This document shows, one piece after another, positions 27,382-46,220 of a stretch of DNA of 52,303 bases. Source of the stretch: a bacterium (GTDB taxonomy: Bacteria; Vulcanimicrobiota; Xenobia; Xenobiales; JADMJV01); contig JASBRJ010000165.1 of the NCBI GenBank assembly GCA_030149525.1, positions 1-52,303 on the forward strand, read 5' to 3'. The translations under genes were made by a program, and so were the position numbers. A model generated the notes under the pieces. It was not told where the DNA came from, did no database searches, and worked only from the letters and a program-made list of their open reading frames with translations. How positions within the stretch are numbered: position 1 is the stretch's first letter; each line of letters begins with the position of its first letter.

Positions 27382-27407
27382 CCCTGTTTCCGCCGAGCAC
27401 TCGAATC

Positions 27408-27440
27408 AAAAAAGCCCTCGAGAAACCTCGAGGGCTTTTT
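27408..27440. terminator. Bidirectional intrinsic terminator
   Basis: Perfect 9-bp stem 27414-27422 (GCCCTCGAG) with 27427-27435, loop AAAC. Five T follow on the plus strand and six T on the minus strand. It separates the convergent response regulator and GT2 genes. Confidence 0.92.
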
Positions 27441-27471
27441 CATTATCCGGTATGAAACCCGGACTTCGGCG

Positions 27472-43032: not shown

Positions 43033-43995
43033 TCAATAACAGAAGTAATATACGTAGTGAAAGAATAGGGGGGCCGTGTAGGTGAGACTGTCCACTCTGT
43101 CTAGGACGCCACCATGGCCGGGAAGCATTTGGGAGGTGTCTTTGATGCCCAGATCTCTTTTGACGGCCGAGACACAGACGTCGCCCACAAATCCGAAGAT
43201 GCTGATCCCGATGCCGGCAAAGACTCCCTGGAAAAGCGTCATGGGCGTCATCCAAATACTGAGGACCGTGGCGAGCGTCGTGGTCGTCAGCATTCCGCCC
43301 AAGAGGCCTTCCCAGGTCTTGTTCGGGCTCACACTGGGCACAACTCGTCGTGAACCGAAGGCTTTCCCCCAGATAAATTGGGCCACATCGTTGAGTTGGG
43401 TCAGAATGATGAGATACAGAACGAGAGCGGGGCCCGAGCCGTACGGGTTTCTGTCGGTGGGGCCGAGCATCAGCAAAAAGGCCAGGTGTGAGAGGGAAAA
43501 AACCGTGGTCATCACGCCCCAGTGGAGGATACCCGCCGCCTTGAGGAAGTTGCTGGTGTTTCCCGAGAGCACCATCCGTAACGGAACGAATAGAAAAAGA
43601 TAAACCGGTACGAAGATGATGAACATTCCATACCATTCCAGGGCCGCCCATAGATATTGAACCGGGATGGAAAGGTAGATATAGAACAGAACATTGCGAT
43701 CCACTCGGCGAGTGGGGGCAAGTGTTAGGAACTCTTTGAGTCCTAAGAAGGAAATCAGAGCAAAAAAGATGAGCGACGTTTCCGAACTCAGCAGTATGGC
43801 TGACGACAGCAACAAAATGATCACCCACCAGGTGCGAAGGCGCTGGACGATTTCGTCGAATTCACCGGAGCCGCCCCGAGAGTGCAGGTAGTTGACGATA
43901 ATCGTGGCGCCAATAAGAATGACGAAGAGACAAACGAGAGCGTACACGACCACGGGGTTGTGGATGGCTGAGGACTCTCCGAGAAAGAGACTCAC
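43033..43995 (-). CDS. cdsA: Phosphatidate cytidylyltransferase
   Basis: 320 residues with about eight hydrophobic helices. The CdsA signature is near the end: SAVKRDLGIKD, then PGHGGVLDRVDS. KTWEGLLGG is another conserved stretch. The protein makes CDP-diacylglycerol from CTP and phosphatidate in the inner membrane. The start is GTG and overlaps the stop of the upstream CDP-alcohol transferase by 4 bases (GTGA), so translation is coupled. plsC follows. Confidence 0.92.
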   Translation of the reverse strand: MSLFLGESSAIHNPVVVYALVCLFVILIGATIIVNYLHSRGGSGEFDEIVQRLRTWWVIILLLSSAILLSSETSLIFFALISFLGLKEFLTLAPTRRVDRNVLFYIYLSIPVQYLWAALEWYGMFIIFVPVYLFLFVPLRMVLSGNTSNFLKAAGILHWGVMTTVFSLSHLAFLLMLGPTDRNPYGSGPALVLYLIILTQLNDVAQFIWGKAFGSRRVVPSVSPNKTWEGLLGGMLTTTTLATVLSIWMTPMTLFQGVFAGIGISIFGFVGDVCVSAVKRDLGIKDTSQMLPGHGGVLDRVDSLTYTAPLFFHYVYYFCY

Positions 43996-44597
43996 TGTTC
44001 AAGTTCCTCCAGACTTCGCCCTATTCGGCGCGCGATGGTGAGAACCGAAAGTAGGGCGCCGGCCCACATCAGTGCTGTGACCCAGAGGAAGCCGGGAAGC
44101 CCGTAGGCGAGCAAAAGTCCCACCAGTCCGAAGAGAAAGGCGCGGTCACTCTTTCCCATGGGTCCGTCGTATCGGCGACTGGCACCCTGACTCACCGCAA
44201 CAACCCCGGTGAATTCTGTGAGAACGGCGAGGCCGCAGAATAGGACTGTGGGATAGAGCGGGAAGTCGGCGCGGAAGGCCAACGGGAGATAGAGTGCGCA
44301 GTCGCTCAGGACGTCGCCCAGCTCGTTGAGAAACCCACCGAGAGCGGATTTTTGGTCGTGCTCTCGGGCCAGCATTCCGTCGATGGCGTTCAGAGCCATT
44401 CTCAGGAACAGCCCCAGGGGGAGCAGATAGAGTATCCGCGGGTCTGAAATCAGCCAGCAGGCCGCTCCGATTGCCACTGACAGAAAGAATGCTCCCACCG
44501 TAACACCGTTGGCGGTGACACCCGAACGGGCGAGTAGATTGGTCACCGGTCTCAGCAGATTCTGAAATCGACTCTTAAGTTGGTAAACGCTTGCCAT
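43992..44597 (-). CDS. CDP-alcohol phosphatidyltransferase family protein
   Basis: 201 residues, about six membrane helices. The CDP-alcohol motif is present as NAIDGMLAR, then eight residues, then GGFLNELGDVLSD. Compared with the canonical D-x2-DG-x2-AR-x8-G-x3-D-x3-D, the first and third Asp are Asn. I believe this occurs in the YnbA-like subgroup, which is linked to cdsA- and plsC-like genes, as here. The head group is unknown. ATG at 44597 (MASVYQLKSRF) is chosen over an upstream TTG. First gene of the phospholipid operon. Confidence 0.85.
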   Translation of the reverse strand: MASVYQLKSRFQNLLRPVTNLLARSGVTANGVTVGAFFLSVAIGAACWLISDPRILYLLPLGLFLRMALNAIDGMLAREHDQKSALGGFLNELGDVLSDCALYLPLAFRADFPLYPTVLFCGLAVLTEFTGVVAVSQGASRRYDGPMGKSDRAFLFGLVGLLLAYGLPGFLWVTALMWAGALLSVLTIARRIGRSLEELEQ

Positions 44598-44645
44598 GAC
44601 CTGCGCTTCGTTCCCCAACGAAGAGTTACTGCTGTTTTGAACTTT

Positions 44646-44672
44646 GTATAGGTTTTGCAGCGAAACCTATAC
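44646..44672. repeat. Perfect 10-bp inverted repeat
   Basis: GTATAGGTTT (44646-44655) and AAACCTATAC (44663-44672), loop of seven bases. It lies between the small RNA and the CDP-alcohol transferase gene. A related TTTGTATA block occurs at 44786-44793. It could be an operator or a leader hairpin. Confidence 0.5.
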
Positions 44673-44684
44673 ATTTAAGCAAAT

Positions 44685-44747
44685 AAAAAAGAGACGCAAG
44701 TGCCGCGGTGAGATGGGGGGACGTCAATTCCGCAGTGCTTACGTCTC
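44685..44747 (-). ncRNA. Predicted 63-nt stem-loop RNA with intrinsic terminator
   Basis: On the minus strand a near-consensus promoter (44754-44782) puts +1 at about 44747. From there the RNA folds at once: 5' GAGACGUAAG pairs with CUUGCGUCUC (10 bp with one G-U), a 2x2 internal loop follows, then UGCGG-type pairing (6 bp), and a 21-base loop. The loop holds GACGUCCCCCC. Directly after the stem come six U, then AUUU, a terminator. There is no ORF inside. It could be a trans-acting RNA, or an attenuator for the lipid operon that starts 88 bases downstream. I know no Rfam family that fits. Confidence 0.65.
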
Positions 44748-44753
44748 AACAGG

Positions 44754-44782
44754 ATAATAACACCGGCCCAAAGGCGTGTCAA
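44754..44782 (-). promoter_or_regulatory. Near-consensus sigma-70 promoter for the stem-loop RNA
   Basis: Minus-strand TTGACA (44777-44782), 17-base spacer, TATTAT (44754-44759). The -35 is perfect and the -10 matches in five of six. It drives the 44685-44747 RNA and possibly the phospholipid operon. Confidence 0.75.
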
Positions 44783-44789
44783 GCTTTTG

Positions 44790-44795
44790 TATACA
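44790..44795 (+). promoter_or_regulatory. Possible -10 box of the 44802 gene
   Basis: TATACA lies six bases before the ATG at 44802, with no purine-rich ribosome site between. No good -35 is seen at the normal distance; a leaderless start is possible but weakly supported. Confidence 0.3.
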
Positions 44796-44801
44796 TTTTG
44801 T

Positions 44802-46220
44802 ATGGATTTTTTTAGAGAAGGATGTTCTTCCAGGATTTTTGAGGGCGAAGAGGCAGTTGTCGAGGTGGCCCGCTCGAAGAAAATAAGACAACCGCTCAAC
44901 GGTTTAGTGCAAGGTCCGGACGCTAAGGGACGTTTTTTCCTGGAGGCTCCAGAGTCCAACAAGAGACTGCTTTTCTATGGAGGTGTCCCTGGCGAGCAAG
45001 CGGTTGTGCGGCGTGGTCGCAAAGGGCGGCGAGGGGAGCAGGGAGATCTTCTTGAGGTCCTCCAGCCTGCCTCCGCCCGACGCTATCCCCCGTGTCGCCA
45101 CTTTGGAGTCTGCGGAGGATGCACGCTGCAACATCTTCCAGAAGCTTACGCGCTTCACCTGAAGTCGGAGCCTCACTACGAAATGTTGAGAAGGTTTGCT
45201 CCGGAGGCGGAGCTCTTGCCACCGGTCCCCTCTCCACGCTCCTTTGCTTACAGAACCAAAGTCGAGCTGACCTTTATGGAGCAACCGGACGGAACAACGA
45301 GCCTGGGCTTTCACCGGCGGGGCCGCTTTGATCGCGGGGTTGATGTCGGTCGCTGTTGGCTGTCGCCGCTTCCCAGTTCTCTTTTATCCGGACTCAGACA
45401 ATGGATGAAGCGATGGGGGCTCAAGGGCTGGAACCCCAGATCCCACCAAGGAGACCTCCGATATCTGATCTATCGTTACTCCTTTTTCACCCAAAGCGAT
45501 CTTCTGGCTCTGGTGGTCAACGGCCATTCCGAGTTGTCTGGAGATTGTAGGGAGCATCTAGCAGCCGTTCTCAGGAGGGAAGGAGTGTCGGGGGCTCTGG
45601 TGATTTCCCAGACCTCGGTGGCAGGGGCCGTGGTTCCGGATGAGACAAGTCCTCTCTACGGACCCCAGCTTCTTACTGAAAGGCTGGGGGAGCTGCGATT
45701 CGAACTGGGATGGCAGTCCTTTTTTCAGGTGAATCCACCGGCTTATGAGCGTTTGTTGGAAACCATGTCCTGTTGGCGCCTTACCTCCCCGGGGAAACGA
45801 GTTCTCGATCTCTTCTGCGGTGTCGGTTCGATAGGCTTGAGTCTGTATCGTACAGGTGACCGCTTGATCGGTGTAGAGTTGGTGGAGCAAGCGGTCAGAG
45901 ATGCCAAAGAAAACGCTTCGCGAAACGGTATCGAGGCCGAGTTCGAGGTTCGGACCGCCGAGGACTGGGATAAGTTTGAGACCGACCTTCTCATTCTTGA
46001 TCCGCCTCGCTCCGGCTGCCATCCTCGTTTGGTCGAGCGACTGGCCAAAGAAGCTCCGGCCGCCGAATTGCTCTACGTGTCTTGTAATCCTCATCGTTTG
46101 ACCGAGGAGTTGCCGCAGCTTTCAGCTCGCTATCGACTGGTGAGAGCGCAGGCTTTCGACTTTTTTCCCCAGACTCACCATTGCGAGCTTTTGCTGCAGT
46201 TCGTCCGCCGGGAGGCTTGA
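44802..46220 (+). CDS. TrmA/RlmD-family 5-methyluridine RNA methyltransferase
   Basis: 472 residues. An N-terminal TRAM-like domain precedes an Fe-S site: CRHFGVCGGC plus a later Cys in VGRCWLS, four ligands as in RlmD. The SAM motif is VLDLFCGVGSIGLSL. DPPRSGCHP and the catalytic Cys in YVSCNP are present. The enzyme methylates uracil C5 of 23S rRNA or tRNA; which one cannot be decided here. ATG at 44802 has no ribosome site, and a TTG five codons upstream is open. Divergent from the small RNA. Confidence 0.9.
   Translation: MDFFREGCSSRIFEGEEAVVEVARSKKIRQPLNGLVQGPDAKGRFFLEAPESNKRLLFYGGVPGEQAVVRRGRKGRRGEQGDLLEVLQPASARRYPPCRHFGVCGGCTLQHLPEAYALHLKSEPHYEMLRRFAPEAELLPPVPSPRSFAYRTKVELTFMEQPDGTTSLGFHRRGRFDRGVDVGRCWLSPLPSSLLSGLRQWMKRWGLKGWNPRSHQGDLRYLIYRYSFFTQSDLLALVVNGHSELSGDCREHLAAVLRREGVSGALVISQTSVAGAVVPDETSPLYGPQLLTERLGELRFELGWQSFFQVNPPAYERLLETMSCWRLTSPGKRVLDLFCGVGSIGLSLYRTGDRLIGVELVEQAVRDAKENASRNGIEAEFEVRTAEDWDKFETDLLILDPPRSGCHPRLVERLAKEAPAAELLYVSCNPHRLTEELPQLSARYRLVRAQAFDFFPQTHHCELLLQFVRREA

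Follow-up and report, generated by a model that had tools for sequence, protein, structure and literature searches.

The hairpin upstream of a phospholipid operon in the 52,303-nt stretch of DNA analyzed here (the window) appears to be a divergent copy of a family of small RNA genes that carry a run of cytosines in the loop of a single hairpin. Comparison of related genomes shows a family of predicted autonomous genes for RNAs of 45–65 nt, as judged from the recurrence of its members, stems that covary, a loop that does not vary and a common promoter layout. The family is undescribed and unlisted in Rfam. The best explanation overall, in which we place somewhat better than even confidence, is that the window hairpin is a divergent copy of this autonomous C-loop family and that its members act as Hfq-assisted, trans-acting repressors.

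The window hairpin and its promoter

On the minus strand, a reading of the sequence bears out all of the elements on which the original prediction of a small RNA was built. A −35 box, TTGACA (44777–44782), whose bases also belong to the third of three 11-bp repeats described below, is separated by a spacer of 17 nt from a −10 box, TATTAT (44754–44759), which is extended by TG at 44762–44761. The predicted start of transcription, G44747, lies six bases past the −10 box and is, as had been proposed, the first base of the hairpin. The 57-nt hairpin RNA (44691–44747), located by folding and as the best match in the window to the covariance model R2 introduced below, has a 10-bp outer stem, a 2×2 internal loop, a 6-bp inner stem and a 21-nt loop (44709–44729). 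This loop contains UUGAC (44727–44723), GU, CCCCCC (44720–44715) and AUC, and thus the predicted six cytosines after GACGU. The hairpin ends in the six-U tail of an intrinsic terminator (T6 at 44690–44685), followed by UUUUUUAUUU; the other copies also have U-rich tails. Together with its tail, the hairpin folds at −25.8 kcal/mol as compared with −11.9 ± 2.7 kcal/mol for shuffled sequences (z −5.08; 0 of 200 shuffles as good), and folding of the whole leader leaves one stable structure that begins at the predicted +1. The RNA had also been described as lacking an open reading frame, and our check of the locus found no convincing one; the sole frame running through it is a 95-codon TTG frame antisense to rlmD.

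The pairing of promoter and terminator is rare by chance. The window holds 11 promoter-like sites that score at least 9/12, and 60 dinucleotide shuffles of the whole window average 9.5 such sites, with promoters of 11/12 arising 0.03 times per shuffled window. A terminator hairpin 4–9 nt past the site follows just one of the 11, which is the small RNA, and the 60 shuffles together produced one such pair. No Rfam model reached its gathering score in the window, and a sequence search with the hairpin found no second copy in its own genome. A DNA similarity search of 98 relatives with the hairpin also found nothing, because the stems are not conserved.

A family of C-loop hairpins in related genomes

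A covariance model made from the window hairpin alone produced one marginal match, in a genome of the same family, which later proved to be a true member, with a C8 loop and its own TGGGCA-17-TATGAT, which ends seven bases ahead of the hairpin. A layout pattern taken from the window copy (U-run, C-run and −10 box) was run on the relatives and on the window's own genome, and it recovered hairpins with a UGAC(C)GA loop in several relatives as well as in that genome; a second pattern, built for this loop, recovered more copies. We read 43 copies, including that of the window. Of the other 42, 5 belong to the window's own genome, 25 were read in five genomes of the sister genus, and 12 come from two further families, namely f2 (G006) and f3, where genus g6 (G010–G013) carries them. 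The family is present in several copies per genome across the order. In the own genome, an 8.27-Mb assembly of 398 contigs that represents the sole species of its genus among the genomes compared, the copies lie at C152, C252 and C351, in tandem at C234 (two copies), and at C281, which is the window's. All of these counts are lower bounds, since the large model search scored only the best candidates per genome; for the same reason, the pattern searches and not the model detected the own-genome copies whose stems are longer.

The model R2, trained on the sister-genus copies, reached E values down to 1e-18 in f1, 1e-10 in f2 and 1e-9 in f3 in a search of 149 genomes, and returned nothing convincing in other classes or elsewhere outside the order. 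The weak matches outside the order proved on inspection to be ordinary terminators or to lack the loop. Because the patterns that recovered the training copies came from the window copy itself, the loop and −10 features of these copies had in part been selected for; the stem covariation, the f2 and f3 copies, the promoter repeats and the Hfq co-occurrence are free of this selection. At 16 family loci, Rfam models at E ≤ 5 gave no match except one chance match to a snoRNA.

The members share a layout of −10 box, single hairpin, UGAC(C)GA loop holding 7–10 cytosines, and U-tail, with one hairpin per promoter–terminator unit in the copies read. The loops are nearly invariant save for the number of cytosines, f3 having UGCC in place of UGAC, and the stems vary in sequence and length yet remain paired. 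Among 15 aligned sister-genus copies we count 34 two-sided changes against 14.8 ± 3.1 in shuffled alignments and at most 5 in slid controls, with 89.7% of cells paired in the real alignment. The −10 motif TANNNT stands upstream in 43 of 43 copies, its distance to the hairpin being 5–9 nt apart from two copies of G006, the TG before it is mostly conserved across the family, and further conserved positions occur about 25 and 36 nt upstream of it. The next downstream gene is convergent in 21 of the 42 other copies, often with its end no more than 20 nt away, so that these 21 cannot be leaders. We consider it highly likely on such comparative grounds that the family copies are autonomous RNA genes, not leaders. 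The covariance search of related genomes that had been proposed as a check therefore yielded a family with a conserved C-rich loop and covarying stems, and together with the conserved promoter it supports the main claim of the original prediction, a self-contained small RNA with its own promoter and a C-rich loop. The loop palindrome GACGUC, through which RNA dimers had been envisaged, is confined to the window copy, so dimerization gains no comparative support.

Promoter repeats and membership of the window copy

Upstream of the window RNA, tandem direct repeats at 11-bp spacing (44773–44805, minus strand; CCATACAAAAT / GTATACAAAAG / CTTGACACGCC) form a candidate activator box. Autocorrelation at lag 11 gives z 4.1 in this promoter and z 5.0 over five own-genome paralogue promoters jointly, and the window box is identical to that of paralogue C234a at 18 of 24 positions without gaps, which none of 2000 shuffles equaled. 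These own-genome direct repeats are strong; an inverted-repeat reading of the sister-genus promoter element was tried and is weak. Tandem 11-bp repeats are the usual type of site for PhoB/OmpR-type response regulators, and the activator of the RNA genes is plausibly of this type. A degenerate pattern of the box finds 24 matches in the own genome versus 3 in a reversed control. Of the seven matches that are exact, four belong to C-loop RNA genes, and some of the remainder precede protein genes.

Whether the window copy belongs to the family has to be weighed against its departures from it. It has the family −10 box (TATTAT, an instance of TANNNT) 6 nt before the hairpin, a single hairpin from the predicted +1 followed by a U-tail, and at least six loop cytosines shortly preceded by UGAC (UUGAC-GU-CCCCCC). 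The exact loop consensus UGAC(C)GA is absent from it, as GU is inserted before the C-run and AUC replaces CGA. R2, which was trained without the window's genome, ranks the hairpin best in the 52 kb at 18.8 bits (E 0.022), with the loop skipped in the alignment. The 5′ arm moderately resembles those of four paralogues (p 0.005–0.04) and the 3′ arm shows no resemblance to paralogues. No orthologue of the window copy was found among the compared genomes, which include no second species of its genus.

We therefore had to consider that the window hairpin could be a terminator unrelated to the family that happens to have a C-run next to a promoter, the other copies alone forming a family. Its variant loop, its different stem and a canonical −35 spacing of 17 as compared with about 20 in the own-genome paralogues would fit such a coincidence. 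It would also, however, have to account for the UUGAC before the C-run that is common to the family, the equal spacing from −10 box to hairpin, the extended −10, the 11-bp repeats with their box identity to C234a, the top rank under R2 and the single comparable site in 60 shuffled windows, and we regard it as very improbable. Family membership is, by this sequence evidence, a conclusion we hold with considerable confidence. Because its loop departs from the consensus, we rate the window copy as divergent and not as a typical member; because it has the 11-bp promoter repeats in common with the paralogues and the 18/24 box identity, we rate it as a probable paralogue.

The downstream phospholipid operon

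The hairpin lies about 90 nt upstream of a phospholipid operon on the same strand, with no other good promoter in between, and rlmD is divergent from the locus. The operon begins with a CDP-alcohol phosphatidyltransferase gene (43995–44597, minus strand; PF01066), which is accompanied by genes for a cytidylyltransferase-family enzyme (phosphatidate cytidylyltransferase-like) and an acyltransferase. Between terminator and operon lies an operator-like 14-1-14 inverted repeat (44645–44673; TGTATAGGTTTTGC/GCGAAACCTATACA), which is single-copy in the own genome and is not a family feature. Its half TTTGTATAGGTTTTG recurs beside the RNA promoter at 44786 (87%) and 44797 (80%), and one regulator may bind on both sides of the small RNA.

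This arrangement invites the reading, also raised in the original prediction, that the hairpin acts in the operon's 5′ leader as a leaky terminator that controls read-through. The shared strand, the short distance, the lack of another good promoter and the operator-like palindrome after the hairpin are all consistent with it. A classical antiterminator, however, requires RNA upstream of the terminator, and in the window copy there is none that could form one, as the hairpin begins at the predicted +1. Nor does such a leader occur at the nearest orthologues of the lipid gene in the phylum, the closest one found being that of G015 (56%), which sits directly behind its own cytidylyltransferase gene. 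With a convergent gene downstream of half of the other copies, attenuation cannot be the function of the family; it may be a side effect at this locus. As an account of the window hairpin itself, we judge the attenuator to be quite improbable.

A proposed mode of action

The window's own genome encodes Hfq (G000:C144, E 1e-24). Within the order, Hfq is present in 11 of 11 searched genomes with the RNA and in 0 of 4 searched genomes without it, a co-occurrence that represents few independent lineages or losses. The genomes that lack Hfq are small and in part incomplete. G015, from another order, encodes Hfq and lacks the RNA. Because Hfq co-occurs with the RNA and the RNA has a U-tail, these observations suggest that the RNAs are Hfq-dependent.

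Most likely, by analogy with mycobacterial 6C/B11 and Listeria LhrC, the members are Hfq-assisted trans-acting small RNAs whose C-run pairs with G-tracts. Each gene consists of an extended −10 promoter with a conserved upstream element and the hairpin, with transcription predicted to start at about its first base. We propose that a DNA-binding activator, plausibly of the PhoB/OmpR type, would read the 11-bp direct repeats and switch several copies on together. The stem and U-tail would stabilize the RNA and load Hfq, leaving the exposed C-run to repress a restricted group of mRNAs by pairing with their G-tracts. Stability or target choice might be tuned by the differences among stems and, in the window copy, by its variant loop. 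For Hfq-assisted pairing as the mechanism, taken by itself, we see the chances as evenly balanced.

That the C-rich loop might attack ribosome sites in general, as had been suggested, is not supported. Among 551 own-genome and 249 G001 genes, the Shine-Dalgarno consensus is the usual AGGAG/GGAGG, and ribosome sites show no enrichment of runs of at least five G. Exact complements of the loop outside the RNA loci were read and rejected; they form no hairpin and look like background. Searches for G-runs and for loop complements thus found no mRNA target, which leaves open either a few specific targets or a protein partner.

A protein partner is the basis of another explanation, in which the multicopy RNAs titrate a C-preferring protein (KH-domain, cold-shock type or Rho) that binds the C-run and its UGA/GA flanks. 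CsrB-type RNAs titrate CsrA in this manner. Such a decoy would make sense of a loop that is invariant, flanks included, while the stems vary freely, and of complementary sites that are not in excess in the searches above. It sits less well with a single site per RNA instead of many and with a C-run of variable length, it names no candidate partner, and the Hfq co-occurrence fits a pairing RNA; we consider it unlikely. A bolder proposal, toward which we are doubtful but less so than toward the decoy, is that one activator drives these multicopy, nearly structure-only RNAs lineage-wide, with an eight-C loop as their sole conserved information, and that they either titrate a protein that binds C or are a main client of Hfq. 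We know of no bacterium with a multicopy eight-C-loop RNA regulon of this design.

Relation to known small RNAs

Pairing through C-loops has precedents in other phyla. The 6C/B11 RNAs of Actinobacteria (Rfam 6C) are likewise short and structured, with C-runs exposed in hairpin loops, and B11 uses its C-loops to repress a reporter that carries the eccB4 leader with its six-G tract (PMC10470900). Whereas 6C is actinobacterial and has two C-loop hairpins, the window family has one hairpin in many copies, belongs to another phylum and appears linked to Hfq. In Listeria, the multicopy genes LhrC1-5 have a common promoter element and depend on the two-component system LisRK, and C-rich UCCC motifs in the LhrC loops bind mRNA (PMC4132741). 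The window family resembles LhrC in multicopy genes, common promoter element and C-rich loops, but LhrC has two stem-loops and three short CU-rich sites, as opposed to one hairpin and a putative activator here. The Yfr2 family of cyanobacteria is also a small RNA family of several members with a conserved motif (PMC6778093), although both motif and phylum differ. None of the Rfam models for 6C, LhrC and Yfr2 matches in the window (gathering score) or at the 16 family loci (E ≤ 5).

If our proposal holds, it would give a group of large-genome bacteria a new small-RNA family, together with its covariance model, promoter code and likely chaperone. The near-minimal layout of promoter, one hairpin, C8 loop and U-tail would also allow a clean test of how a C-run alone can select targets or partners.

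Additional repeats and gene neighborhoods

Several further observations were made in the course of these searches. In the window, a short, strong inverted repeat with T-runs at 27398–27448 gives weak R2 matches on both strands and is probably an ordinary bidirectional terminator. G021, from another class, carries an interspersed repeat with TGACCCCCGAAAC...GTGCAG-GACTTTTT in at least six places (L276–L279), and this repeat was not observed to fold into the family hairpin. Triple 11-bp repeats of the CTTGAC/TTTGAC type also stand about 60–160 nt upstream of own-genome protein genes without assigned function (L369, L373, L375, L388 and L391, at C44, C323, C355, C288 and C339, respectively), which makes these genes and the RNA genes a candidate common regulon. 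Finally, each of the five sister-genus genomes (L263, L264, L266, L270 and L271) retains a tandem pair of C-loop RNA genes with different stems, about 130–240 nt apart and divergent from a gene that, from its sequence, we take to be squalene/phytoene synthase-like.
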